Source: Fibrobacter sp. (GTDB lineage: Bacteria > Fibrobacterota > Fibrobacteria > Fibrobacterales > Fibrobacteraceae). Taken from it: a stretch of DNA of 64,000 nt. The DNA lies in NCBI GenBank assembly GCA_024399015.1, contig JAKSIC010000010.1, positions 1 through 64,000 of the forward strand. Reading direction: 5' to 3'. A program made the translations under genes and the position numbers. This document shows positions 24,797 through 40,145 of this stretch, in pieces. Each line of letters begins with the position of its first letter. Positions within the stretch are counted from its first letter, which is position 1. The notes beneath the pieces were generated by a model, which saw only the letters and a list, made by a program, of their open reading frames with translations, did not search any database and was not told the DNA's origin.

Positions 24797-25915
24797 TTAC
24801 ATCCAGCTACGTTCAGAGGTGCCGGAAATACCGCGGACCTTAAGGTCGAAGTCATCCGGGTTGGTTGCTGCATTCATGGCTGTTTCCAAGGTAATCTGAT
24901 CGGTCTGGTAAAGTTCCAGCAGAGCCTGGTCGAAGGTCTGTGAACCATACTGCATGTGGCCTTCAGCAACAGCCTGTTCCACCATGTCGATCTTGTCCTT
25001 GTCCTGGATGTATTCCTTGATTGCACCAGTATTCACCAGGATTTCTGCGGCAGGAACACGACCTGCGCCATCCTTGGTAGGAAGCAAGCGGAGGGAAATA
25101 ATGCCAGCCAGAACTTCGGCCAACAGCAGACGAATTTCTTCGTGCTGGTGCGGCGGGTACATGGAAAGCACACGGTGAATAGTTTCGGTAGCGTTGGTGG
25201 TATGGATGGTTGCAAACACCATATGGCCGGTATCGGCAGCAGTCATGGCGATCTGCATGGTTTCCAAGTCACGAATTTCACCCACCAGCAAAACGTCCGG
25301 ATCCTGACGGAGAGCGGCACGCAATGCGTTTGCATAGGACAAGGTATCCACGCCAATTTCACGCTGGGAAATAATGGCCTTGTTATCCTTGTACAAATAT
25401 TCGATCGGGTCTTCAACGGTAATGATGTTCACCGATTCCTGCTGGTTGATGTAATCCAGCATAGAAGCCAAAGTGGTGGACTTACCAGAACCAGTTGTAC
25501 CAGTAACGAGAACGAGACCGCGGCGAGTCAAGGCCAGCTTGCGGATAACATCCGGCAAATGCAATTCTTCGAAAGCGGGAATCCTAGCCTTGATATGACG
25601 GATAACGATAGCGATGGTACCGCGCTGACGGAAAACGTTCACACGGAAACGACCCATATCACGGGCACCCACTGCAAAGTCGCATTCCTTATTTTGTTCA
25701 AAACGCAGTTTCTGGTCGCGGTTCATGATATCGTCCAGGAAGGAGTCCATCATGGAAGCGTCAATACGAACAGGAATCGGACGTTCCAAGGAACCGTTGA
25801 TACGGTAAACCGGCGGAACACCGATACGAAGATGCAAGTCGGAAGCCTTGCGATTCACCATTTCGCGAAGGAGCTGTTCGATGCGGAGAGTCTGCGGAGC
25901 CTGCTGTTCAGCCAT
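24797..25915 (-). CDS. pilT: PilT-type twitching-motility ATPase
   Basis: This 372-residue cytoplasmic ATPase has all PilT signatures: an N-terminal PAS-like part (ASDLHLRIGVPP), Walker A GTTGSGKST, the Asp box VEDPIEY, Walker B VGEIRD and His box GHMVFATIHT, plus the C-terminal AEILVNT region. PilT powers retraction of type IV pili. No other pilus gene is in the window. The upstream gene is a giant acidic TPR protein, and the two overlap by one base in TAATG, so they are translationally coupled and may act together. Length and motifs are normal for PilT. Confidence 0.93.
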   Translation of the reverse strand: MAEQQAPQTLRIEQLLREMVNRKASDLHLRIGVPPVYRINGSLERPIPVRIDASMMDSFLDDIMNRDQKLRFEQNKECDFAVGARDMGRFRVNVFRQRGTIAIVIRHIKARIPAFEELHLPDVIRKLALTRRGLVLVTGTTGSGKSTTLASMLDYINQQESVNIITVEDPIEYLYKDNKAIISQREIGVDTLSYANALRAALRQDPDVLLVGEIRDLETMQIAMTAADTGHMVFATIHTTNATETIHRVLSMYPPHQHEEIRLLLAEVLAGIISLRLLPTKDGAGRVPAAEILVNTGAIKEYIQDKDKIDMVEQAVAEGHMQYGSQTFDQALLELYQTDQITLETAMNAATNPDDFDLKVRGISGTSERSWM

Positions 25916-28900
25916 TAAGCGTTACCTCCAAACTTGGTGCGGTAAATCTTTTCGATTTCATCGAGACGTGCTGCAATTTCAGCGTTGTCCGGTTCCTTCT
26001 GGGCAAGGTCTGCATAAATGTCGAGAGCCTTTCCATAGAGACCCTGGTCAAAATAGATTTCAGCCAAGGTACGGGTGTTCAGGCTGTCGTCCAATTCGTG
26101 TGCGCCACGGTCAAGAGGTGCATCCGGATTGTTGATGAGGCTTGCGGAAACTTCGTCGTCGGAATCACCGGACATGAGGAAATCAACACCCTTGTTGGAG
26201 GGCATGGATTCTTCAAGAGAATCATCTTCCATATCGAAGAGACCCTTGAATGCGCCGGAGACTTCAGTTTCCAAGGAGTTCAATTCGCTGGGAGCGGCCT
26301 TAGCAGCGGCCGGCTTTTCAGAGCCGAAGTCCAGACTATCGTCACCACCGAAGAGGGAATCAAAGGACTTGTCCAAATCGGACTTTGCTTCGTCGCTACC
26401 AACGGTTGCTGCAATTTCTTCAACAGCGGCACCGGTAGATTCAGAATCCTTTACTGCAGAGGCCTTGCTATCCGGCAAGTCAAGATCATCATCATTGCCG
26501 AACATGGAAGCGAATGCACCACCCATTTCCTGGGCAAGGTCTTCAGTTGCAGGCTGAGCTTCAGCAGAAGGCATTTCCAATTCAGATTCTGCGGAGTCCA
26601 CCTTTTCAGCCAAGGTTCTATCGTCAACTGGTTCAGCGGCAGGTTCTGCAGCGTCTTCAACAGGAAGATCATCATCGTCACCGAAGATGGAAGAGAATGC
26701 GCTATCCACTTCAAGCTTTTCTTCTGCAGGAGCTTCTTCAGAAGCGGTTTCTTCTGCGGAAGGTTCTGCCACGGCAGGTTCGTCGTCCAGAACGAAATCC
26801 ATGGGAGAAGCGATCATCGGTTCAGCAGGAGTTTCTACTTCAGCCACAGGTTCTGCGGGCTTTTCTTCGGGAAGGTCATCATCATCACCGAAGATGCTAC
26901 CGAAGGCGTCGGCAACTTCAGACTTTTCTTCTGCAGGTGCGGCAACGTCATCAAGAGTTGCGGTCATTTCTTCAGAAGCCTTGTCATCGCCAAAGCTCAA
27001 GGTACCGAAGGTATCTGCAGGATCAGAGGAAGCTTCTTCTGCGGCAAGTTCTTCAGCAGGCTTTTCTTCAGGAAGATCATCATCATCACCGAAGATGCTA
27101 CCGAAGGCATCAGCGACTTCAGACTTTTCTTCTTCGGGAGCGAGTTCTGCAGCAAGAGCTGCGTCAACGGACCATTCTGCGGCAGGTTCTGCAGCAGGAG
27201 CTGCAACGTCTTCAACAGCCAAGTCTTCTGCCGGCTTGTCTTCATCAAGATTCAATGCGCCGAAAGAGTTCAGGAAATCATCCGCAGAAATTGCGGACTC
27301 TTCTGCGGAAACAGTAGATTCTTCTGCAGGAGCTGCAGTTTCTTCGGTTGCAACTTCAGCGGTTTCAGCTGCGGGGTCGTCCAATACGAAATCGTCCGTC
27401 GGCAATTCAAGAGTTTCTTCTGCAGCAGGTTCTTCGGCAGGTTCAGTCAAGCCGAGAGCTTCAGATGCAGCGGCGAAAGACTTTTCAAAGATGTCTGCGC
27501 CAGCGGACTTTTCAAACAAGCCGCTACCAAACACTGCCTCGGCAGAGGACTTTTCTGCAGGCAGTTCTTCAGGAAGTTCATCTTCACCAAAGATGCTATC
27601 AAAAGCGTTATCAACAGTCGTGGGCTTGTCTTCTGCGGACTTTTCGAACAGACCACCACCGAAGGCGTCTTCTTCAACTTCTTCCGCGGCAGGTTCAGCA
27701 GATTCTTCAACAGTTTCAGCAGCGGGTTCCGGAGACCATTCGCCAGCAGCAGGCTGAGGCTTTTCTTCGGGAAGTTCGTCTTCACCAAAGATGTCATTGA
27801 AAGCATTGTCCACTGTAGTGGGCTTGTCTTCATCCAAAGCGGAAGCTGCGGATGCAATTTCTTCAGCGGGTTCTTCCACTGCCGGTTCAGGCTTTGCGGT
27901 ATTCTGCGGCAGTTCTTCCGGGAGTTCGTCTTCACCGAAGATGCTGTTGAATGCATTGTCCACGCTCATGGGCTTGTCTTCTGCGGCAGGCTTACCGAAG
28001 ATGCTGGATGCGTTTGCTTCAGCCTCTTCATCAAGGACAACCTGCTGAGCAGGAGCTGCGGGAGCTTCTTCAACTTCAAGATCATCATCCAAGCCGAACA
28101 TGTCAGCCAGGGCGGAATTCACATCGTTACCGGAGATGTTTTCATCCACCGGGAATTCTTCAGCGTTAGCAGGTTCACCAGATTCGATGGACTGCATCAC
28201 GGATTCCAGGGAAGCGGAAAGGTCTTCCACAGCGGAATCGTCAGAAGCATCGCCATTGGGAAGCATTGCGGCCAGAGCTGCAAACGGATCATCTTCTGCA
28301 GGAGCTTCATCTTCTTCATTAAGATTGAAGCCACCAAAGGGAGATGCTGCGGGAGCCGGTTCATCAAGGGAAACGTCAGCGTCGGCAGTAGCACCAAGGG
28401 ATTCTTCGGGACTATCGTCCAGGGACAGGTCAAAAGAATCGTTGGACTTTTCAAAGACAGAGCCCATACCACCTGCGGATTCTTCAGCAGGTGCGGCCAC
28501 ATCGGCCGGAGCAGTTTCGGCGCTCTTGTCGAACATGCCGTCGGATTCACCCAGGTTGAAGTCCAGGGACTCATCATCGCCACCCGGCATATTGAAGGCG
28601 TCTTCGGCAAGACCACCCATGGCGGCACTGAGAGCAGCATCCGGAATAACATCGTATTCGTCCTTCCAGAAGTTGTTCAGCGGGTCCATGTCGTGGTAGC
28701 GACGGTAGCAGAGGTTACGTTCTGCAACATTGCCCAACTTGTCGTAGGCGTCGCCCATAATCTTCTGGGCTGCCAGATTGAAGGGATCCTTCACGAGAAT
28801 CTTGTCGCACTGCTGCACGCAGCCTTCAAAGTCTTCCTTCTGGAAGAGGATCTTGGCGCGGACAATCATTGCTGCCACGTCGTTCGAATAAAGGGTCAAT

Positions 28901-29031
28901 CCCCCATCGATACGATTAAGTGCGGTATCCAGATCACCGGCGGCACGTTCCAAATCAGCAAGCCAAGCAAAAATCTTGGAATTGCTGTTTTTCTTGCCTA
29001 CGGACTTCTTAAGAGTTTCCAATGTGACCAT
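25915..29031 (-). CDS. Giant acidic TPR protein with repeated FxSIFG-acidic motifs
   Basis: This 1038-residue protein has no signal or membrane segment. TPR-like repeats lie at residues 1-125 and at about 975-1030 (LYGKALDIYADLAQKEPDNAE). Between them is an 800-residue low-complexity region dominated by Ala and Glu. It holds about ten spaced copies of a motif like AFxSIFG(D/E)(D/E)(D/E)LPEE: a short hydrophobic helix followed by acidic residues and Pro. The layout, acidic disordered region plus TPR, recalls FimV-type polar scaffolds, and the gene is coupled to pilT. A multivalent scaffold for pilus or polar proteins is my inference. The repeated motif is seen directly. Confidence 0.8.
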   Translation of the reverse strand: MVTLETLKKSVGKKNSNSKIFAWLADLERAAGDLDTALNRIDGGLTLYSNDVAAMIVRAKILFQKEDFEGCVQQCDKILVKDPFNLAAQKIMGDAYDKLGNVAERNLCYRRYHDMDPLNNFWKDEYDVIPDAALSAAMGGLAEDAFNMPGGDDESLDFNLGESDGMFDKSAETAPADVAAPAEESAGGMGSVFEKSNDSFDLSLDDSPEESLGATADADVSLDEPAPAASPFGGFNLNEEDEAPAEDDPFAALAAMLPNGDASDDSAVEDLSASLESVMQSIESGEPANAEEFPVDENISGNDVNSALADMFGLDDDLEVEEAPAAPAQQVVLDEEAEANASSIFGKPAAEDKPMSVDNAFNSIFGEDELPEELPQNTAKPEPAVEEPAEEIASAASALDEDKPTTVDNAFNDIFGEDELPEEKPQPAAGEWSPEPAAETVEESAEPAAEEVEEDAFGGGLFEKSAEDKPTTVDNAFDSIFGEDELPEELPAEKSSAEAVFGSGLFEKSAGADIFEKSFAAASEALGLTEPAEEPAAEETLELPTDDFVLDDPAAETAEVATEETAAPAEESTVSAEESAISADDFLNSFGALNLDEDKPAEDLAVEDVAAPAAEPAAEWSVDAALAAELAPEEEKSEVADAFGSIFGDDDDLPEEKPAEELAAEEASSDPADTFGTLSFGDDKASEEMTATLDDVAAPAEEKSEVADAFGSIFGDDDDLPEEKPAEPVAEVETPAEPMIASPMDFVLDDEPAVAEPSAEETASEEAPAEEKLEVDSAFSSIFGDDDDLPVEDAAEPAAEPVDDRTLAEKVDSAESELEMPSAEAQPATEDLAQEMGGAFASMFGNDDDLDLPDSKASAVKDSESTGAAVEEIAATVGSDEAKSDLDKSFDSLFGGDDSLDFGSEKPAAAKAAPSELNSLETEVSGAFKGLFDMEDDSLEESMPSNKGVDFLMSGDSDDEVSASLINNPDAPLDRGAHELDDSLNTRTLAEIYFDQGLYGKALDIYADLAQKEPDNAEIAARLDEIEKIYRTKFGGNA

Positions 29032-29353: not shown

Positions 29354-31060
29354 TTAACGCAAGTATTTCAGGTTTACAAGGGCATAATCGCCATTTGAGC
29401 CGTTTCCTATGAGCAGGAACACACGTAAACCCAGGTTTTCAAGCCATTTAATGTCGTAATTTTCGCGGAATCCGGAGGAATTGGACACCACCAGAAGTTC
29501 GCGGCAGCCGGTACGATTACAAATGGATTCCATTTCAGACAGGGATCCAAGAACATGCTGACGATTTTTGTCAGTAATTTTAGTCTTGTCGTTAGAGACG
29601 CAGCCGAGAATTTCGATACCCGGAATCACATTGTAACGGTCAAACCAGCTGTCCAGAGAATCTTCGGAACCGCCCAGCAAAATGGAGCGATGACGTTTTT
29701 TGGCAAAAATTCTGTAGAAATAGTTTATCCAAAATGCCACACGTCGCCAGGCCTTGAGAGCCAAGGGGATGAACAGAATGGAAACACCAACGATAATCGC
29801 CCAGGGTTCGTCATAAGCCATCATGGGATCCTGAAAACCAGCAAATGTCTGAGGCAGCTGCGTAACAAGGCGGTATCCAATATAACAACCCACGGAAAGC
29901 AAGTTCAACGGCAAAAGGTGACGGATAAAACGATCCCCCTTAAGACTGCCACTAGCATATTCCCCACGGAAAGTCAGGAAAACAATATTGACTATGGCCA
30001 CTATAGCTACAAGCCACCAGTTTTCAAACAACCTGCCATCAAATATGGAATGCTGTAAAAGCGCAGAGACAGGTTCCGGACAGCTATGGGTCCCATCGTC
30101 AAAACACGCATAATCCAGCACAACTTCATGTTCTGAACAAAAAGCAATCAGAGCCCACAGGGCCACCACGCCCAAGTCCAGGAAAATCTTCCAGAACTTT
30201 GGAATCAGGCGGGTAAACATTCCCACGAACGCAGCAAACAGAATACCCAGAGTCACCAAGAACGAGGGAACAAAGTAAAGGTCCTTATGCTTCTTCACGA
30301 AAATAATCATGGCCTTGTAGAAATCCACATAGGACTTCCAGCGGCGGGTCTTGCAGCTCTGACCCTTGAAATGGAGGATGTTTGTAGACGGAGTGTAGTA
30401 GTTCTTAAATCCAGCCACCTTTGCACGGAAGCAAAGATCCAGGTCTTCACCGTACATGAAGAAGTCTTCATCAAAGCCATTCAATTCGCGGTACAGTTCG
30501 CTACGCATGCAGAAGAAGGAACCACTGATGGCATCCACTTCCGTAACCTCCTCGGGGTCGGCGTAGGTCATGTTGTAGGAGGCAAACAGCTTGCTCTTGG
30601 GGAACAAGGCTGCCAACCCCACCGTCTTGGAAATTGCAGAGAACGTGGTGGGGAAAGAACGGCGGCAAGCCAACTGCAGGGAGCCATCTTCATTCAGGAT
30701 GCGGCAGCCTGCCAAACCCGTTTCCGGACGTTCCTGAACAAATTCAAGAACCTTGCGCAGGGAATCCCTGGATACCAAGGTATCGGGATTCACAAAGAAC
30801 AGGTAGGGCTTGGTAGCTGATTTTACGGCAAGGTTGCAACCCTTGCCAAAGCCCAGATTTTCCTTGGAGTCAATCCAGACCACTTCCGGGAAGTAAGCCT
30901 TGATCTCGGGAGTAATAGGTTCTGCAGAACCGTTATCCAGAACAATAACCTGAGTGTCAATTCCCTCGCTGGCGTCTCGAATAGACTTTAGGCATGCGGG
31001 AATAAAGTCGCAGGAATTATATGCGACAATAATGACGGAACAGGAATAATCTACTGCCAT
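29354..31060 (-). CDS. GT2 glycosyltransferase fused to a membrane and nucleotide-binding-like domain
   Basis: This 568-residue protein has a family-2 glycosyltransferase domain (about 5-240; VIIVAYNS, LDNGS, FFVNPDT as the DxD-type site, MYGEDLDLCFR) related to rhamnosyltransferases. A membrane part with several helices follows (about 260-445). The last 120 residues (RSILLGGSEDSLDSW ... RELLVVSNSSG) look like the CoA-binding-type Rossmann domain found at the N-terminus of polyprenyl-phosphate sugar transferases, here without their catalytic part. That combination is unusual. It begins 19 bases after the DPM1-like gene and probably works on the same lipid-linked or surface glycan. Confidence 0.78.
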   Translation of the reverse strand: MAVDYSCSVIIVAYNSCDFIPACLKSIRDASEGIDTQVIVLDNGSAEPITPEIKAYFPEVVWIDSKENLGFGKGCNLAVKSATKPYLFFVNPDTLVSRDSLRKVLEFVQERPETGLAGCRILNEDGSLQLACRRSFPTTFSAISKTVGLAALFPKSKLFASYNMTYADPEEVTEVDAISGSFFCMRSELYRELNGFDEDFFMYGEDLDLCFRAKVAGFKNYYTPSTNILHFKGQSCKTRRWKSYVDFYKAMIIFVKKHKDLYFVPSFLVTLGILFAAFVGMFTRLIPKFWKIFLDLGVVALWALIAFCSEHEVVLDYACFDDGTHSCPEPVSALLQHSIFDGRLFENWWLVAIVAIVNIVFLTFRGEYASGSLKGDRFIRHLLPLNLLSVGCYIGYRLVTQLPQTFAGFQDPMMAYDEPWAIIVGVSILFIPLALKAWRRVAFWINYFYRIFAKKRHRSILLGGSEDSLDSWFDRYNVIPGIEILGCVSNDKTKITDKNRQHVLGSLSEMESICNRTGCRELLVVSNSSGFRENYDIKWLENLGLRVFLLIGNGSNGDYALVNLKYLR

Positions 31061-31079
31061 GACAACGGTCCCTTAAAGA

Positions 31080-31796
31080 CTATGCCAAACCCAGGCGGAG
31101 TTTAAGAACCAGGAAGAATGCCTCGGAAATAATGCCACCGCTCATCTTGGAGGTACCGCGGGTACGGTCCGTAAAGATAATAGGAATTTCCTTCACGGTA
31201 AGGCCCTTCTTCCAAACCTTGAATGTGGTTTCAATCTGGAAGCAGTAGCCATCGCTCTTCATCTTGTCAAGATCCAACGCTTCCAATGCACTGCGGCAGT
31301 AACACTTAAAGCCGCCCGTTGCATCACTTACGGGAAGGCGGGTCACCATACGGGTGTAAACGTTGGCGCCGTAGCTCAAGATCAAACGCTTCAGGTCCCA
31401 GTTCACCACGCTAATGCGGTTGTGCTTGTAACGGCTACCCAGAACAAGATCTGCACCGTTTTCTGCAGCTTCCAGGAAGCGGTTCAAGTCTGAGGGAGAG
31501 TGGCTGAAGTCGGCGTCCATTTCGAACACGCGTTCATAGTCACGTTCCAGGGCCCACTTAAAACCGGTAACATATGCAGTACCGAGGCCCATCTTGCCCT
31601 TGCGGCGGATCAAATGGATTCGAGGATTCTTCTGGGCTTCTGCCTCCACCAAGTCGCCGGTTCCATCCGGAGAACCGTCGTCCACAACCAAAACTTCCAG
31701 ACAGTCGTTCTGTTCCAGAATAGCAGACATAATGAGCAGGATATTTTCCTTCTCATTATAGGTCGGTACGATAACTAAGCTCTTAGGGTATGCCAT
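31080..31796 (-). CDS. Polyprenol-phosphate mannose synthase-like GT2
   Basis: This 238-residue protein is a soluble family-2 glycosyltransferase of the DPM1 type: VIVPTYNEKENI at the start, VVDDGSPDGTGD, the acceptor-side motif MDADFSHSP (DAD), and GSRYKHN. No C-terminal transmembrane helix is present, as in bacterial Ppm1-type catalytic domains. It should transfer mannose (or another hexose) from a nucleotide sugar to polyprenyl phosphate on the inner face of the membrane. It lies in a row with a second GT2 enzyme and the DUF2723 GT-C gene, which need exactly such a donor. Confidence 0.87.
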   Translation of the reverse strand: MAYPKSLVIVPTYNEKENILLIMSAILEQNDCLEVLVVDDGSPDGTGDLVEAEAQKNPRIHLIRRKGKMGLGTAYVTGFKWALERDYERVFEMDADFSHSPSDLNRFLEAAENGADLVLGSRYKHNRISVVNWDLKRLILSYGANVYTRMVTRLPVSDATGGFKCYCRSALEALDLDKMKSDGYCFQIETTFKVWKKGLTVKEIPIIFTDRTRGTSKMSGGIISEAFFLVLKLRLGLA

Positions 31797-31877
31797 ATAA
31801 AATCCTTAATCCTAACTTCCAAATTACAAAGACAATTTACAAAACAACGATTTAGAAAGCGAATCTTCTTTACGATT

Positions 31878-32798
31878 TTAGTCCCTTATGGTTTCCGCAA
31901 CCGGATAAGTCTGGGTCTTGTTGCCGTTCATCATTTCCCCAAGCAGGCCCAGGGAGAAGAACTGCACGCCCATCACCAGGGAGAATCCACCGGCAAGGAG
32001 CAGCGGACGCACGTGGAGAGCGCCAGTCTGAATCCATTCATAACCGAAGTAGCCACTAACGCCCAGGCCTACCATCACAAAGATGAGACCCAGCAAGCCG
32101 AAGAAATGCAGGGGCTTTGCGGCAAAGCTACGAAGGAACAAAAGGGAGAGCAAGTCCAGGAAGCCGGAAACCAGGCGGGAAACTCCGTACTTGGAAACGC
32201 CATGGACGCGGGCGCGGTGGGCCACCGGCATTTCGGTAATGCGGAAGCCCTGCCACTTGGCCATCACCGGGATAAAGCGATGGAAATCGCCATAAAGGTG
32301 AATGAAGCGGACCACGGAACTGCGGTAAGCCTTGATACCGCAGTTGAAGTCGTGAAGACGCTGGCCACACACTGCAGAAACAGTGAGGTTGAACAACTTG
32401 GAGGGCCAAGTCTTGTGCCAGGGATCTAAGCGGCGGATCTTCCAGCCGGAAACCAGGTCGTAACCGTCTTCAAGAATCTTGATCATCTTGGGAATTTCCA
32501 GAGGATCATCCTGCAGGTCGCCATCCAGAGTAGCAACGTACTTGCCGGAAGCCTTGGAGAAACCGAAAGCGAGGCCGGCAGCCTTACCGCAGTTGAACTG
32601 GAAGCGGTAAGCCTTGAGGAAAGCGTATTCCTTGGAAAGGTTTTCAATTACTTCCCAAGTGTTGTCGCGGCTTCCGTCATCGATAATGATGACTTCGTAC
32701 TCATATCCCGTAGGATCAATCGCGTTGGCGATTTCTTTCAGAAGGTCAGGAAGATTTTCGCTTTCTTCCTTGACCGGAATGACCATACTTAAATCCAT
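31878..32798 (-). CDS. Membrane-anchored polyprenyl-phosphate hexose synthase (GT2)
   Basis: This 306-residue protein is a GtrB/DPM-like family-2 glycosyltransferase (residues 1-225; VIPVKEESENLPDLL, IIDDGSRDNT, LDGDLQDDP as the DxD motif, FRFNCGKAAG-like QFNCGKAAGLAFG). Two transmembrane helices follow (about 232-258 and 268-292). Members make polyprenyl-phosphate glucose, mannose or aminoarabinose precursors. It begins 13 bases after the stop of the DUF2723 gene and is almost certainly in the same operon. The sugar cannot be decided from the sequence. Confidence 0.86.
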   Translation of the reverse strand: MDLSMVIPVKEESENLPDLLKEIANAIDPTGYEYEVIIIDDGSRDNTWEVIENLSKEYAFLKAYRFQFNCGKAAGLAFGFSKASGKYVATLDGDLQDDPLEIPKMIKILEDGYDLVSGWKIRRLDPWHKTWPSKLFNLTVSAVCGQRLHDFNCGIKAYRSSVVRFIHLYGDFHRFIPVMAKWQGFRITEMPVAHRARVHGVSKYGVSRLVSGFLDLLSLLFLRSFAAKPLHFFGLLGLIFVMVGLGVSGYFGYEWIQTGALHVRPLLLAGGFSLVMGVQFFSLGLLGEMMNGNKTQTYPVAETIRD

Positions 32799-32811
32799 TC
32801 GAAACCTCGAA

Positions 32812-35800
32812 TTAGTTTACAGCGTCAAAAACGGGTTCTTCCACAGCAGGTTCATCAGCCTTGGCGGAATCTTCTGCCTTGGCTTCTACTGCGGGAGCGG
32901 GTTCTTCGACCTTCAGCGGTTCATCAGACATCATTTCGATCTGACGGACAGCCATATTCAAACGTGCAATGCCACCTTCTTCGAAGGCAGGAACATTCTG
33001 GAGGCCGCGAGTTGCAGCATCCATTGCTTCCTTCTTCATACCGGCAGCCTGGTAGACGAATGCGGCAGCCCAGTAGTTACGCCATTCCTTCGGGAACTGC
33101 TTCATACCCATTTCCAGGTACTTGCCAGCGGACTGGCCCAAGCTATCCACCTTAGCCTTGAGTTCTGCGGTGAACGGATGAGTGCTGCGGAGGCTTTCGA
33201 TCTGGTCGCGAGCGTTGAAGGAAATCTGCAGGTACAGAGAAATGTAGCTGGAAAGCAAACGTTCGGTTTCGTCGTTGATGTATGCGGTGCCATCGCCAAG
33301 GCCACGGAACTTGTAGACGGAGTCAATCAAGTTTGCGGTGTAGGCTGCATCGAAGTCGTTACGACGAGGAGTGAGGTCACCCTTCACGAAGTTGTACACC
33401 ATACCTTCCTGGACCATGTACTTTTCAAGACCCATGAAGTTGGAAGTACCGACGGTGGTGGAAATTTCAATGGGACGATCCATGTTCTGGAGAGCGAGGT
33501 CAATGACCAGCTTATGCTGGGTGAGCATCATGGAGCTGCGGGTACGCTGAGCCCATTCGGTGAATGCATCCCAAACCTGGTAATGAACCTTGAACTGGAG
33601 AAGCTTTGCAGAATCTGCAGCGGAGAGTTGCTGCCCCTCCATGGCGTCGATGCGCTGCTTGAGCTGCGGCATCAAACGGTTTGCGTTCTTCACCCAGGTA
33701 GAAACCTGATGGTTGGGATTGTTTGCGGAGCTGTTGTCCAGAACCATGTCACGGTCGATGGCAGCCTTGTCGTAAGAGAGCTTGAGAACAGGTTCGTTTT
33801 CAAGCATCTGCTTGATGTACCAGTCGGTGTTACCCAAGGAGAGGTTCACCACGCGAACGTCCTTACGGATGCCGGCAACTTCCTGTGCAAACCACAGCGG
33901 GAAGGTATCGTTATCGCCGTTGGTAAAGAGGATTGCGTTGGGGCGGCAGCTGTTCAAAAGGTTGTAAGCATAATCCCAAGGAACCCAGAGGCCGGAACGG
34001 TCATGTTCCTTGTAGTTGGAAATGCAGGGAACCATAAAGGATACGAGCACCAGAGCTGCAGCCAACGGAGTTGCGAGAGTAGCCATGGTTCCGGTTGCAG
34101 TAAGGAACACAAGAATACCTGCGCCAACACCGAAGATAAGGCTCATGACAATGAAAGCCGGAGTGTAGAAGTAGTCACGTTCGCGGACTTCCAAATGAAC
34201 AGGTTCCGGGAACGGGGCACGCTGACCAACCTGAGCAAAGCCAGCTTCAATCTTACGCCAGTTCTGCCAAACGGTGGTATTTTCGTAGCCTTCGATTTCC
34301 TTCTGGATAGAAGCGAGAGCGCTAGCATCTGCACCACGGACCTTCAACATTTCCTGACGGATCTTGGCATGTTCAATATTCTGACGCATGTCAATAAGAT
34401 CGTTAGGATCCGGAAGAGCAGAAATGCCCGCACCGCGGCCGTTCAAATCCTGAACGTTACGGCTCATGACACTTACCCAGTAGTCGTGGTCACGCTGTTC
34501 CATGCGGGTACCGTCGGCGAAGTTGATGTAGAACAACAAGCCGAGAGAGCAGAGGGCATAGAGAACAGACATGAAGAGGCCAACCTTGGAGTTGCGCTTC
34601 CAGCAGAACACGCAAACCAGAATCAGGAGGCCGTTAAAGATGAAGAACACCAGGAACTGCTTGACAGTATTGTCACCCATCATGCTCATCTGTGTGGGGA
34701 ACTTGATGCCAAGACGTTCTACCGGCTGGTTGTCGCCGGCATCGAAAGTATAGACGCCGTTAGCGTAGTTCACCTCGCCCACCTTATACGGCAGGTACTG
34801 AGCCATCTGGTAGCCACCGAAGCCCATATGCGGGAAGCTGAGGAACTGGTGAGCGGTACGGGAACGACGGTAGAAAGCTCGGCTAATCATGCTTTCGGAA
34901 CCATACTGCTTACGTTCGATAAATGCGTTGAAGGCATCCCAGTTTTCAGCCTTGAAGAGGTTACCCAACTGCAAGTTGCCCTGGTCGTCACGGATGTTGA
35001 TTTCCGGGTTGTTTTCGTCGATAGTCGGGTTCAGTTCAGAGCGGATAGGAATGTAAAGATGGGTGCTGTAGCCGATGAGGGCAAAGAATGCGAAGGCCAG
35101 GGAAAGGCGAACGCTACGGTTCATGCCAGCCTTGAACGGCTTAGCAACAGCGAGGATCGCAAGAACAACTACGCAAGCCAAGGAGATTTCGATAAAGGCG
35201 GAAACCATGTAGATCACGGAGCAGAGGAGTGTACCGGTGATCCAGATAGGAAGGCGTTCCACGATTTTCTTCGGCTGAGCCACCAGGAGCAACACGAATA
35301 CTGCAGGAACAGTAAGCATGGTGTAAAGGTGGGCGCCAACACCGAGGAATGCGATGTAGCAAATGAAAATCAAGATGCGGTCGCTGGAATCTTCGTCGTC
35401 CTTCTGCTTGTACCACACGAGGCCGAGGTAAGAGACCAACATCAAGATGAACATGGCAATGCCGTACACTTCAGCTTCAACAGCGTTGAACCAGAAGGTA
35501 TCGGAGAAAGTCAGGAGGAAGCCAGCAACGAGAGCTGCGGTACCGAGAACGACGGTGCGGGTCTTGCCGGAAATCTTGTCGGCGAGACGTTCCACAATGC
35601 CTTCGCCCTTTTCCTTGGCGGAGTCCAGCACGATAGCCAGAATTTCCCATGCGAAAAGTGCGGTCACATAAACGGTAGCTGCGGAGCTAATCACGGAAAT
35701 GTAGTTCACGCGCTTTGCGATTTCTTCAACAAAAGGAAGAAGAACAATCACCGCACGAGCCAGGAACACGAAGAACGGAGTTCCAGGAGGATGAGGAATA

Positions 35801-35940
35801 CCGAGGGTGTTTGCGCAAGCAACGAATTCACCGCAGTCCCAGAAGCTCACGGTAGGAGCCATGGTGAGGCAGTAGATAATAAGAGCGATAAAGCAGGAGA
35901 TACCTGCAAAGACATGCTTCATCCACTTTTCTTTCAACAC
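32812..35940 (-). CDS. DUF2723/TMEM260-like GT-C membrane protein, candidate protein O-mannosyltransferase
   Basis: This 1042-residue protein has an N-terminal block of about ten or more transmembrane helices (1-430). The first loop motif SFWDCGEFVA ... HPPGTPFF is the signature of DUF2723. Further helices lie near 430-470 and 590-640. A C-terminal soluble part of about 350 residues follows, with TPR-like helices near 960 and an acidic Glu/Ala tail. The human member TMEM260 is a protein O-mannosyltransferase; bacterial members are mostly uncharacterised. It begins two bases after nusB and is followed by two GT2 enzymes that could make the lipid-linked sugar donor. Confidence 0.82.
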   Translation of the reverse strand: MLKEKWMKHVFAGISCFIALIIYCLTMAPTVSFWDCGEFVACANTLGIPHPPGTPFFVFLARAVIVLLPFVEEIAKRVNYISVISSAATVYVTALFAWEILAIVLDSAKEKGEGIVERLADKISGKTRTVVLGTAALVAGFLLTFSDTFWFNAVEAEVYGIAMFILMLVSYLGLVWYKQKDDEDSSDRILIFICYIAFLGVGAHLYTMLTVPAVFVLLLVAQPKKIVERLPIWITGTLLCSVIYMVSAFIEISLACVVVLAILAVAKPFKAGMNRSVRLSLAFAFFALIGYSTHLYIPIRSELNPTIDENNPEINIRDDQGNLQLGNLFKAENWDAFNAFIERKQYGSESMISRAFYRRSRTAHQFLSFPHMGFGGYQMAQYLPYKVGEVNYANGVYTFDAGDNQPVERLGIKFPTQMSMMGDNTVKQFLVFFIFNGLLILVCVFCWKRNSKVGLFMSVLYALCSLGLLFYINFADGTRMEQRDHDYWVSVMSRNVQDLNGRGAGISALPDPNDLIDMRQNIEHAKIRQEMLKVRGADASALASIQKEIEGYENTTVWQNWRKIEAGFAQVGQRAPFPEPVHLEVRERDYFYTPAFIVMSLIFGVGAGILVFLTATGTMATLATPLAAALVLVSFMVPCISNYKEHDRSGLWVPWDYAYNLLNSCRPNAILFTNGDNDTFPLWFAQEVAGIRKDVRVVNLSLGNTDWYIKQMLENEPVLKLSYDKAAIDRDMVLDNSSANNPNHQVSTWVKNANRLMPQLKQRIDAMEGQQLSAADSAKLLQFKVHYQVWDAFTEWAQRTRSSMMLTQHKLVIDLALQNMDRPIEISTTVGTSNFMGLEKYMVQEGMVYNFVKGDLTPRRNDFDAAYTANLIDSVYKFRGLGDGTAYINDETERLLSSYISLYLQISFNARDQIESLRSTHPFTAELKAKVDSLGQSAGKYLEMGMKQFPKEWRNYWAAAFVYQAAGMKKEAMDAATRGLQNVPAFEEGGIARLNMAVRQIEMMSDEPLKVEEPAPAVEAKAEDSAKADEPAVEEPVFDAVN

Positions 35941-35942
35941 GA

Positions 35943-36380
35943 TTACTTCTCCTTAGATTCGGGGGCAGTCATGCCGCGGCTCTGCATAAAGCCTGCCAGG
36001 ATACCATTAACAAAACCATCAGAACCATCGGTGCTGAACTTGGAAGCAATCTGCACGGCTTCAGTAATAGCCACCTTCATGGGAATTTCCGGGATGTAGC
36101 TCAATTCCACCATTGCGATGAAAAGGACAAGGCGGTCAATACGAGCAATGCGGTCCAGTTCCCAGTGAACAGAATTTGCCTTCAGGGATTCTTCCAGTTC
36201 GGCCTTGTGTTCCTGAACCAGGTCCACCAGCTTCATGCCGTACTTCTTCTGGTTGTCCTGAAGAGGCTGAGCTTCCAGAACGCCCGGCAGAGCCTGACCA
36301 ACGGTCTGTCCTGTAATTTCCATAGCGTAGAGCAACTGCATTGCAAATACGCGTGCGGGTCTATAACTGATTTGTGCCAT
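35943..36380 (-). CDS. nusB: Transcription antitermination protein NusB
   Basis: This 145-residue protein is a short all-helical NusB: RPARVFAMQLLYAME at the N-terminus, then LVDLVQEHKAELEESL, and ELDRIARIDRLVLFIAMVEL, a classical NusB motif, followed by IPMKVAITEAVQIASKF. NusB binds boxA RNA with S10 (NusE) and helps transcribe rRNA operons. It sits after ribH, as in many genomes where ribH-nusB is conserved, with an 82-base gap. The DUF2723 gene starts two bases after it, an unusual downstream partner. Confidence 0.92.
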   Translation of the reverse strand: MAQISYRPARVFAMQLLYAMEITGQTVGQALPGVLEAQPLQDNQKKYGMKLVDLVQEHKAELEESLKANSVHWELDRIARIDRLVLFIAMVELSYIPEIPMKVAITEAVQIASKFSTDGSDGFVNGILAGFMQSRGMTAPESKEK

Positions 36381-36462
36381 AAAACGATTTTTCCAGTTAT
36401 TGCGTTTTTCTTTACTTAAAATCTTATAAAGCGTCGCGAGCTATTATACGAGACTGAGCGAA

Positions 36463-36930
36463 CTACTTCTTGATCTGCTTGTAGAGGTTTGCCATTTCCA
36501 CAGCGGTGGAAGCCCAGCTGCAACCCAGGTTGCCAGCCTTGAGGCCTGCACGGTTCATAGCCTGGTCCACAGTGTCAGTGGTCAGGATGCCGAGGATCAT
36601 AGGAACCTTGCCTTCAGCGGCAATATTTGCGATACCACCGGTGGAGTTGTTTACAACAACGTCATAATGGCTGGTTTCGCCACGGATCACAGCACCAAGA
36701 GCCATCACGGCGTCATACTTGCCGGAATCTACGAAGCGGCGGCAGATGCCCGGAAGTTCGAAAGCGCCCGGAACATGAGCCACGGTGATGTCCTTGTCGG
36801 CAACACCGAGAGTGGTCAACTGACGGACAGCACCTTCCAAGAGCTTGTCCGTAACGATTTCATTGAAACGAGCGACGGCGATAGCCACCTTCATTCCGTT
36901 ACCATTCAGAGAATTCTTCAGTTCGTTCAT
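36463..36930 (-). CDS. ribH: 6,7-dimethyl-8-ribityllumazine synthase
   Basis: This 155-residue protein condenses 5-amino-6-ribitylamino-uracil with 3,4-dihydroxy-2-butanone 4-phosphate. Family marks are VARFNEIVTDKLLEGA, the VPGAFELPG loop, and GAVIRGETSHYD with the catalytic His. Length is normal; it forms a capsid-like or pentameric assembly in the family. It starts 10 bases after ribBA and belongs to the riboflavin run ribD-ribE-ribBA-ribH. GGAAGGAATT lies before the ATG. Confidence 0.94.
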   Translation of the reverse strand: MNELKNSLNGNGMKVAIAVARFNEIVTDKLLEGAVRQLTTLGVADKDITVAHVPGAFELPGICRRFVDSGKYDAVMALGAVIRGETSHYDVVVNNSTGGIANIAAEGKVPMILGILTTDTVDQAMNRAGLKAGNLGCSWASTAVEMANLYKQIKK

Positions 36931-36940
36931 AATTCCTTCC

Positions 36941-38152
36941 TTAAGCCTCGTCCAACTTCAGGTCGTGGCCCATCTTGTCTTTCTTGGTCTGCAAGTAATA
37001 GCGGTTGATCTTGTTGGGTTTGATTTCGATAGGAACGCGTTCCACAATTTCCAAGCCGTAGGCGGAAATGCCGCTAATCTTGCTGGGATTGTTGGTCAAA
37101 AGACGCATCTGCTTTACACCCAGGTCTGCAAGGATCTGTGCGCCGGTACCATACTGGCGAAGATCAGGCTTGAACCCAAGGTGGAGGTTTGCATCGACGG
37201 TATCCATACCCTTTTCCTGAAGTTCGTAGGCGCGGAGCTTGTTGCAAAGACCGATACCGCGACCTTCCTGGCCACGGAGGTACAGAAGCACGCCACCGTT
37301 TTCACCGATGAACTTCATGGAGGCAGCCAGCTGTTCGCCGCAATCGCAACGCATGCTGCCAAAAATATCGCCAGTCAAGCATTCACTATGAACGCGGACA
37401 TAGACCGGCTTTGAAAAGTCGGGGTTACCAGCCACCCATGCCACATGTTCCACACCATCGGTGGTGCTGCGGTAGGCGTAGGCCTTGAAGTCGCCGTACT
37501 TGGTAGGAACGTTGGGAGCAGCCACACGCTGCACCAGCTTTTCCGTCTTCAGGCGGTAGGCGATCAAGTCGTGGATAGAGATAATCTTCAGGTCGAACTT
37601 CTTGGCCACTTCCTGCAACTGGGGCATACGGGCCATGGTGCCGTCTTCATTCATGATTTCAATGAGGGCGGCAGCGGGGCGAAGTCCTGCAAGCTTTGCC
37701 AAGTCCACAGCAGCTTCGGTATGGCCAGCACGGCGGAGCACGCCTTCTTCCTGGGCATACAGCGGGGAAATATGGCCGGGGCGGCCAAAATCACTGGGCT
37801 TGGAAGCAGGATCAGAGAGCGCAAGAATTGTTGCCGCACGGTCATGGGCGGAAACACCGGTGGTGCAGCCTTCAATCTTATCCACCATGATGGTGAACGG
37901 GGTGCCGAGAATAGAAGTGTTTTCGGCAGTCTGGCGGGTCAAATTCAGTTCATGACAACGGTTGATGGGCAGCGGGCAGCAAAGGACGCCGCGGCCTTCG
38001 TGGAGCATGAAGTTCACCTTTTCCGGTGTAATCTTTTCTGCAGCAATGATAAAGTCTCCTTCGTTTTCGCGGTCTTCATCATCCACCACAATCAAAAACT
38101 TGCCAGCCTTGAAATCCTCAAGGGCTTCTTCAATCGTATTAAGCAAGGTCAC
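36941..38152 (-). CDS. ribBA: Bifunctional RibBA: DHBP synthase and GTP cyclohydrolase II
   Basis: This 403-residue protein carries DHBP synthase (1-200; [24 protein letters not shown]-like GHTEAAVDL) and GTP cyclohydrolase II (205-403; [20 protein letters not shown] with the zinc Cys residues, and [10 protein letters not shown]). It performs both entry steps of riboflavin synthesis. All active-site motifs are present in both halves. The start overlaps the end of ribE by 14 bases, so the genes are translationally coupled. Confidence 0.94.
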
Positions 38153-38738
38153 GCTCCTTCAAATAGTTCTCGATGTACTTACCAAGCATGTCTACTTCCA
38201 CATTCACGATAGTACCGGGAACCCAGTTACGCAAATTGGTACGGGCCAAAGTTTCTGGAATAATGCAGACGCGGATGGAATCCTCAAACTTTTCAGCCAC
38301 CGTAAGGCTAATACCGTTCAAGGACACAGAACCGCGGCGAATCACGTAGCGGCGCAGGTCCTTGGGGAGTTCCAAATCCACTTCAACACCAGTTTCGCGG
38401 TTTGCGACAGCAATGACCTTCACCGAGGTATCCACATGGCCCATGACAAAATGTCCGCCCATAAAAGAATCCGCACGGCAAGCCTTTTCCAAATTCACCA
38501 ATTTACCCGGCTCAGCCTGCTTAAAGGAGGTGTTTTCCACCGTCTGGTGCATCAGGCAGAATGTAGCTTCATCGTCGGTGCAACTTTCAATAGAAAGGCA
38601 CACGCCGTCGTTTGCGACACTATCGCCCAAATTGCAGCCCTTAAAGAAACCGGGTGCAGAAAGTTTCATGGTAAGCGCATCCCCACGGCTTTCAAGCGAG
38701 AGGATGGTACCAGTACTTTGAATAATACCTGTAAACAT
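38139..38738 (-). CDS. ribE: Riboflavin synthase alpha chain
   Basis: A 199-residue protein from ATG 38738 (starting [10 protein letters not shown], the family start). It is a duplicated lumazine-binding protein: the first half has [12 protein letters not shown] and the second [14 protein letters not shown], with NFExA-type regions at [24 protein letters not shown]. It dismutates two lumazines into riboflavin. A longer frame to 38798 lacks a family match and is rejected. The 5' leader holds a multi-stem structure with a terminator at 38799-38868. No FMN riboswitch consensus was seen. Confidence 0.93.
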
Positions 38739-38798
38739 ACGCGCCAAATTTAGTAAAAGGCGAATGTGCGCGTTGGGGCCAAAGTGGCGAAAATGCAC

Positions 38799-38868
38799 AA
38801 AAAAGGCCCGATTTTAGGTCGGACCAGCATTCAAAGTTAGATTCATCTAACTCACCTAAATAGGGCCC
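38799..38868 (-). promoter_or_regulatory. Multi-stem RNA element with terminator tail between ribD and ribE
   Basis: On the minus strand, right after the ribD stop, an outer stem GGCCC/GGGCC encloses a second stem (TTTAGGT with ACCTAAA) and a perfect hairpin (AGTTAGA-TGAA-TCTAACT), followed by six T. A small alternative hairpin GGTC-C-GACC competes with the second stem. It may be only a complex terminator, but the alternative pairing and its place in front of ribE make an attenuator or riboswitch possible. It does not match the FMN riboswitch consensus. Confidence 0.5.
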
Positions 38869-40145
38869 TATGCAGGATAATAAACGGTCAGTACATCGGG
38901 GCCGGCCATAAAGGATTCCTTGGCCACCAACTTTTCAGGAATAGAAGGGAAATCAAGACTTTTTGAAACCATGCCTTCGTCAATGAAAGACGCAAGGGCA
39001 TCATCAATGGTATTATCGGTGGAACGCCAAAGATCCAAGCGGTTCCAGCCACCATTTTCAAACAGCTGCTTGGCAAGGCCTACGCCGGGTTCCACCATGA
39101 GGCGATGCATACCCAAGGCAGAAAGATGGTCCAGCATTTCGTTCCAGCAATCTGCAAAATTGGACTTGGTCAGCACAACTGCATTGGGGATAGCCGGCTG
39201 AGGAACACAGGAGAAAACCAACGCTTGAATCACACCGGATTCTGCAGAACCGTCTCCGGTAAACACGCGATAGGAGGAAACCTCCCCTGCCGTAAATTCA
39301 TGATGGCCTGCCCACACGATCTTGACGGGATTATTGCCACGCACCAGACGAACATCCAAACCAGGATTATCTGCGAGGACGGTGCCTGCGCCAACAAGGA
39401 TGGCATCGCTCATGGCACGAAGTTCGTGATTCCAGTAGTTGGCGCCATCCCCGGTGATTTTCATGGGCTTGTTGGAGCCATTGGGCAGAACGTAACCCAT
39501 GGAGCCTTCGTCAGTAACGGCGCTCTTGACTTCTACAAAAGTTCGCTTGTTACGGACAAAGTAGTCGTAGGCTTCAAAGTAGTGTTCAATGTCGTGGAAA
39601 ACGGCACTGCCTTCGGCGACAGATTCTTTTGAAAAGTCTGCTTGGATTGCCACGTCGCTCCGCTCCTCGCAATGACTTTGTGCTGCATATCCCAAAACAG
39701 TACATTCCGAGCCACCGCATTCATCGTCCCAGCTTTCAGGAATTTCTGCGCGGATGCAAGCATCTACGCCTTCATAGACTTTGATTCCTGCTTCTTCCAA
39801 AATTTTTCTGCTGTTTCCGCGGACAACGGGATTGGGGTCGCCGTGAGCATAGTAGACTTCAGCGATTCCAGCGTCAATGATAGCCTTAGTGCAGGGGGGC
39901 GTGCGGCCATAATGGCAGCAGGGTTCCAGAGTCACGTAAATGGCCGCGCCGCGGGCAAGTTCGCCCGCGTCACGCAGCGCCATGACTTCGGCATGGGCAC
40001 TTCCGGGGCGCTGCGTACGCCCCTTCCCCACGACGATTCCATAACGAACAACAACGGCACCCACCGCCGGATTAGGGCGGCTAACACCAATAGAGAGCAC
40101 AGCCTCTTCCAAGGCCATTCTCATGTAGTTCGAAACTTCAGACAC
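38868..40145 (-). CDS. ribD: RibD: diaminohydroxyphosphoribosylaminopyrimidine deaminase/reductase
   Basis: This 425-residue protein joins a zinc deaminase domain (1-150; HAEVMAL and LEPCCHYGRTPPC as the zinc ligands) to a reductase domain (about 185-425; SDAILVGAGTVLADNP-type motif). It carries out the second and third steps of riboflavin synthesis. Residues 156-168, between the domains, read SHCEERSDVAI and are encoded by a dispersed palindrome (39644-39678); RibD is normally about 360-380 residues, so the linker is enlarged. Both active sites appear intact, so the enzyme is likely functional. It starts 22 bases after the rhodanese stop. Confidence 0.9.
   Translation of the reverse strand: MSEVSNYMRMALEEAVLSIGVSRPNPAVGAVVVRYGIVVGKGRTQRPGSAHAEVMALRDAGELARGAAIYVTLEPCCHYGRTPPCTKAIIDAGIAEVYYAHGDPNPVVRGNSRKILEEAGIKVYEGVDACIRAEIPESWDDECGGSECTVLGYAAQSHCEERSDVAIQADFSKESVAEGSAVFHDIEHYFEAYDYFVRNKRTFVEVKSAVTDEGSMGYVLPNGSNKPMKITGDGANYWNHELRAMSDAILVGAGTVLADNPGLDVRLVRGNNPVKIVWAGHHEFTAGEVSSYRVFTGDGSAESGVIQALVFSCVPQPAIPNAVVLTKSNFADCWNEMLDHLSALGMHRLMVEPGVGLAKQLFENGGWNRLDLWRSTDNTIDDALASFIDEGMVSKSLDFPSIPEKLVAKESFMAGPDVLTVYYPA
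39644..39678. repeat. Dispersed imperfect palindrome (ATTGC...GCAAT type), copy C
   Basis: A 35-bp sequence with ends GGATTGCCACG and CTCGCAATGACT and a different middle (TCGCTCCGCTC) from copies A and B. It encodes HCEERSDVAI in the interdomain linker of RibD, in frame. Confidence 0.85.

Follow-up and report, generated by a model that had tools for sequence, protein, structure and literature searches.

A TMEM260-like GT-C enzyme as leading candidate for the transferase that starts protein O-glycosylation in Fibrobacterota and Bacteroidota

The window analysed here (64,000 nucleotides, positions 1 to 64,000 of contig JAKSIC010000010.1 of a Fibrobacter sp.) encodes a 1042-residue protein of the DUF2723 family, followed by three family 2 glycosyltransferases that we call GT2a, GT2b and GT2fus (Table 1). 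An earlier note on this DNA had read DUF2723, GT2a and GT2b as a candidate protein O-mannosylation cassette. Our analysis makes DUF2723 the leading candidate for the transferase with which glycosylation of exported proteins begins in Fibrobacterota and Bacteroidota. General protein glycosylation, described as essential for Bacteroidota viability (PMC12632263), matters in this major group of the gut microbiota, and its initiating enzyme is still sought.

A TMEM260-like protein and its locus

All open reading frames named in the earlier note are present on the minus strand, including the third GT2 fusion adjoining GT2b. The FWDCGEF and HPPGTP signatures occupy residues 33-39 and 50-55 of the DUF2723 protein, and the matches to PF11028 and PF00535 lie far beyond chance. 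The order on the minus strand is ribD (38868-40145), ribE, ribBA, ribH, nusB, DUF2723, GT2a, GT2b and GT2fus. Because the gaps from nusB to GT2fus are short (2, 13, 81 and 19 bp, in that order), a single transcription unit is likely, and on their coordinates all genes from ribD to GT2fus probably form one operon. DUF2723, GT2a and GT2b are the tail of this longer rib-nusB unit (about 29354-40145) rather than a free-standing cassette, and the riboflavin genes lie outside the glycosylation function. Promoter and terminator scans gave values near those of shuffled sequence and were set aside.

Table 1. Features of the DUF2723 locus in the Fibrobacter sp. window
Feature	Coordinates	Strand	Length or start	Basis
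DUF2723/TMEM260-like GT-C glycosyltransferase; candidate periplasmic protein O-mannosyltransferase	32812..35940	-	1042 aa, GTG start	PF11028
FWDCGEF-to-HPPG codons (residues 33-53 approx.), first periplasmic loop	35791..35844	-		alignment with human TMEM260
GT2a, ArnC/GtrB-type GT2 with C-terminal membrane helices; candidate second polyprenyl-phosphate-sugar synthase	31878..32798	-	306 aa	PDB relatives
GT2b, DPM1-type GT2 without membrane anchor; candidate polyprenyl-phosphate-mannose synthase	31080..31796	-	238 aa	PDB relatives
GT2fus, GT2 domain, membrane region and C-terminal stretch	29354..31060	-	568 aa	PF00535
nusB, conserved upstream neighbour of DUF2723	35943..36380	-		PF01029
ribH, ribBA, ribE, ribD, riboflavin genes, upstream part of unit	36463..40145	-		ribH: Pfam/NCBIfam; others: sequence and conserved order

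The assignment of the 1042-residue protein to the TMEM260-like GT-C enzymes of PF11028 is well supported. The match to this family, now named TMEM260-like, has an E-value of 7.6e-46 and 156.6 bits against a curated cut-off of 24.2; it is the sole Pfam family reported for the protein, and the genome holds a single PF11028 gene. Among all PDB sequences searched with phmmer, the only relative is human TMEM260 (9rql, 9rqm and 9rqn; E 4.3e-13), which bears out the kinship proposed in the earlier note. The alignment falls into two separate stretches, residues 12-88, which span the first loop with its acidic and HPPG motifs, and C-terminal residues 578-718. D35 and E38 of the first loop align with the D/E of human TMEM260 and are candidate catalytic acids. 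Across 64 family members D35, E38, H50, G53, E155, R300, Q345, Y346, R586, R588, D676, N677 and D678 are invariant; within FWDCGE and EVRxRDYF this invariance is partly by construction, because both served as search patterns when the members were collected, and the other invariant residues are free of that bias.

An AlphaFold2 model built from 64 natural sequences (mean pLDDT 84.7, pTM 0.87) has helical pairs at residues 890-1002 in a C-terminal soluble, TPR-like region. Foldseek against the PDB lists ArnT (top), PglB, Pmt4, ALG12, ALG9 and Pmt1-Pmt2 with probabilities of 0.9-1.0; given the E-values and TM-scores weighed below, these matches place DUF2723 in the GT-C superfamily and no finer. 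TMEM260 is not among the listed Foldseek matches of the model, and 9rql, 9rqm and 9rqn did not turn up in the structure library searched. The model has a GT-C fold and not that of a transporter, and the unrelated transporter family that the earlier note had named as its refuting outcome is ruled out by Pfam, the PDB sequence match and the fold search. The nearest relatives, from Fibrobacterales and F. succinogenes metagenome-assembled genomes (MAGs), share 82-83% protein identity. A helical insertion at about residues 490-570 occurs only in Fibrobacter itself and in none of the other aligned Fibrobacterota families.

Donor synthases and conservation across phyla

The earlier note had taken both GT2a and GT2b for donor synthases, a proposal that holds well for GT2b and at the level of enzyme class for GT2a. 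Both match PF00535 strongly (E 8.9e-31 and 1.6e-32). The best PDB relative of GT2b is the dolichyl-phosphate-mannose synthase (DPMS) of Pyrococcus furiosus (E 3.6e-27), ahead of ArnC (1e-8) and GtrB (1.4e-5); its DAD motif aligns with that of DPMS, and the genome contains no second full-length close GT2b homologue. From these sequence relationships, GT2b is likely the synthase of a lipid-linked mannose donor. GT2a resembles ArnC most closely (E 2.2e-45), then GtrB (sll0501; 1.1e-25) and then DPMS (1.6e-21), which suggests a polyprenyl-phosphate-sugar synthase whose sugar is not readable from sequence; the NCBIfam equivalogs for the GT2 enzymes all score far under their cut-offs and assign no sugar to GT2a. 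GT2fus carries a weaker PF00535 match (E 5.7e-20), and its C-terminal stretch (residues 345-549) shows weak similarity to the non-catalytic half of polyprenyl glycosylphosphotransferases (TIGR03025, E 3.6e-5, far below cut-off). Elsewhere the genome encodes an enzyme of GDP-mannose synthesis (TIGR01479, 541 bits), which shows GDP-mannose capacity, along with two RmlD proteins over cut-off. It also encodes one weak PMT_2 protein and two Wzy_C proteins; PF02366 (PMT, GT39) has no match anywhere in the genome, and no STT3-type transferase was found there.

DUF2723 and GT2b are both close to universal in the groups sampled. A DUF2723 homologue is present in 61/61 genomes of a relatives search that reached out to the same phylum, Fibrobacterota, and PF11028 in 148/148 sampled Bacteroidota genomes; among 14 named control genomes it occurs only in the Bacteroides. 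Homologues of GT2b with 49-61% identity are present in 60/60 Bacteroidota genomes, in one of which (G110) the match is in two adjoining pieces. The neighbourhood conservation that the earlier note proposed to check is also found: the order rib genes, nusB, DUF2723 is kept in most Fibrobacterota genomes examined and seen again in Zixibacteria. Within the same class GT2a, GT2b and GT2fus come after DUF2723; GT2fus comes after GT2b both in these relatives and in G110, and one family adds a GT4, an LPG_synthase_TM protein and an RmlD protein to the DUF2723 locus. In KSB1, Calditrichota and related MAGs a recurring order is GT4, DUF2723, LPG_synthase_TM, other genes, RmlD and GT2b, and the GT2b found near DUF2723 in KSB1, Calditrichota and Krumholzibacteria shares 55-62% identity with that of the window. 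GT2b lies within the fetched flank (up to 8 kb per side) at 11 of roughly 75 DUF2723 loci outside Fibrobacter, where a single-copy gene placed at random would rarely fall; in three Bacteroidota genomes the two genes are about 9-11 kb apart.

Four genomes of the same class (G039, G041, G043 and G050) carry a long DUF2723 protein plus tandem runs of short paralogues of about 520-800 residues, with 7-13 matching stretches each (for example G050:C10:1782-8190 and G039:C2:201129-206569); the short paralogues possibly serve different acceptors or sugars. In several phyla a YfhO-like membrane protein stands beside or close to DUF2723 (loci L047, L112 and L130).

A glycosylation sequon in exported proteins

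Exported proteins of Bacteroidota carry O-glycans at D-(S/T)-hydrophobic sites, with the motif D-(S/T)-(A/I/L/V/M/T); the common core of these glycans comprises mannose as the first sugar, rhamnose and a hexuronic acid, and similar motif enrichment occurs in Fibrobacterota (2025 review, PMC12871550). The same review describes the flippase, transferase and ligase of the core as undiscovered and suggests homologues of eukaryotic O-mannosylation as a possible source of insight. We scored this motif over 864 kb of the window's genome, using our own gene calls and shuffled sequences as the baseline. The frequency of D-[ST]-[AILVMT] is 1.78-1.88 times the shuffled value (z about 12) for 154-163 predicted secreted proteins and 1.04-1.06 times for 283-287 cytosolic proteins. 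Control patterns that place E-[ST]-, N-[ST]- or D-[AG]/[AGN]- before the same residues give 0.97-1.07 in the secreted set. When all 400 X1X2-[AILVMT] pairs are scanned without bias, D-S comes out on top (z 12.4) with D-T next (z 4.3), and at the third position L is preferred, followed by I, T, V and M. E. coli is flat for the motif (1.07), a Zixibacteria genome reaches 1.54 (z 5.1) and pooled Bacteroidota give 1.86 for D-S-[LIVT] (z 5.2). Since the motif is enriched in its secreted proteins, a protein acceptor is supported in the Fibrobacter sp. of the window; the earlier note had proposed the glycosylation of exported proteins without foreseeing this signal. The most over-represented tripeptide in the predicted secreted proteins is poly-serine (SSS, 259 against 48 expected), probably from linkers.

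An initiating step and its alternatives

The computations support the family, the fold class, the operon and its conservation, the class of the donor synthases, GDP-mannose capacity and the enrichment of the sequon in exported proteins. We favor, with moderate confidence, a reading in which the products of this locus initiate sequon-directed protein O-glycosylation, GT2b making polyprenyl-phosphate-mannose and DUF2723 mannosylating D-(S/T)-hydrophobic sites. The order of steps that we infer would begin with GDP-mannose supplied by the enzyme encoded elsewhere in the genome, from which GT2b would put mannose on polyprenyl phosphate, on the cytoplasmic side of the inner membrane. The polyprenyl-phosphate-mannose would then be flipped, the LPG_synthase_TM protein in the locus of several relatives being a candidate flippase, and in the periplasm DUF2723 would move the mannose onto exported proteins, to Ser/Thr of their D-(S/T)-hydrophobic sites, its C-terminal soluble region perhaps helping to choose substrates. 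GT2a may provide a second polyprenyl-phosphate-sugar, GT2fus may help to build the remaining glycan, and other enzymes would extend it after the first mannose.

The known systems bracket this proposal. Human TMEM260 (CAZy GT117), a protein O-mannosyltransferase of about 730 residues that acts in the endoplasmic reticulum on IPT domains (PMC11292533), in plexins and related receptors, shares the family, the acidic/HPPG motif of the first loop and, on the lumenal side, a homologous stretch near the C-terminus, whereas the bacterial protein has 1042 residues, lies in an operon with GT2 enzymes and likely has a D-(S/T)-hydrophobic target. The general O-glycosylation of Bacteroidota (LFG) has the same sequon enriched in exported proteins and a mannose-first core that fits a polyprenyl-phosphate-mannose initiator; its known genes, however, build the outer glycan (an LFG locus of the form metG-wzx-...-two GTs), and the Fibrobacter DUF2723 locus is distinct from LFG. 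The PMT enzymes (GT39; yeast and actinobacterial Pmt) share the GT-C fold, with Pmt4 and Pmt1-Pmt2 among the fold matches, and the logic of a polyprenyl- or dolichyl-phosphate-mannose donor, but DUF2723 belongs to a different family with a different C-terminal region.

Several observations weigh against the initiating role. The Foldseek E-values are weak, from 0.007 (best) to 0.3, and the TM-scores low. Motif and signal peptides were called by simple rules, and DUF2723 is present with little motif enrichment in two Bacteroidota genomes of low guanine-plus-cytosine content and with none in one Latescibacterota genome; with these three genomes a strict correlation between DUF2723 and motif enrichment fails, and the motif cannot be predicted in every genome from DUF2723 alone. 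GT2b and DUF2723 are not adjacent in most Bacteroidota, and the neighbourhoods are mostly non-syntenic. In the published working model it is the core that is transferred, en bloc, and not a single mannose (PMC12871550), and we found no biochemistry on any bacterial member of the family.

That working model underlies one alternative, in which a Wzy_C (PglL/WaaL-type) O-oligosaccharyltransferase moves the core en bloc, while the role of DUF2723 lies elsewhere. The genome does encode two Wzy_C proteins, but both carry the Wzy_C domain only, such proteins are generic (present in 9/14 control genomes), and the model leaves a near-universal TMEM260 homologue without a role; we consider it improbable. 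Equally improbable is an ArnT-like activity, transferring a sugar from polyprenyl phosphate to a lipid or polysaccharide (lipid A, lipopolysaccharide core or capsule) and not to proteins. ArnT is the top fold match of DUF2723 and GT2a is of the ArnC/GtrB class, yet ArnT would be classed under another Pfam family, the C-terminal region common to DUF2723 and TMEM260 has no known role in ArnT, the partner GT-C is of the TMEM260 type and nothing points to lipid A or O-antigen as the acceptor. A strong sequon among exported proteins, moreover, calls for a protein-directed enzyme, in a genome that has neither PMT nor STT3. Somewhat less remote, though still unlikely, is a GT-C protein glycosyltransferase that handles another sugar, such as galactose or glucose, or a later step of the glycan. 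The unreadable sugar specificity, the ArnC/GtrB-like GT2a next door and the reported galactose at the reducing end in Tannerella speak for it; against it stand the mannosyltransferase activity of TMEM260 (PMC11292533), DPMS as the nearest relative of GT2b, and mannose as the usual first sugar in Bacteroidota (PMC12871550).

Returning to mannosylation by DUF2723, we put at about even the broader proposal that DUF2723 is the missing initiating transferase, and GT2b its donor synthase, for sequon-directed protein O-glycosylation in Bacteroidota, Fibrobacterota and related groups, adding a single mannose from a polyprenyl-phosphate donor rather than a core en bloc, as the bacterial counterpart of TMEM260. 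The enzyme family and the sequon system were known before; new here is that they are paired in a concrete, testable way, together with a donor synthase and a conserved locus. In the open-access literature we found no paper on DUF2723 and none naming a core transferase; subscription journals and preprints lay outside that search, so priority is not claimable. By pinpointing two specific, near-universal genes, the analysis makes the long-standing question of the initiating enzyme directly testable, and it connects TMEM260, a disease-linked human enzyme, with a large uncharacterised bacterial family.

Two further features of the region stand apart from glycosylation. An in-frame stretch of ribD (about 39640-39680) encodes SHCEERSDVAIQ and resembles a translated palindromic repeat element; it is missing in the relative L034, and the 864 kb sampled hold no further copy. 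Beyond GT2fus, a TPR protein (25915-29031, minus strand) contains internal repeats that are long, acidic and degenerate (for example AFGSIFGDDDDLPEE) and adjoins a type II/IV secretion ATPase (24797-25915, minus strand).

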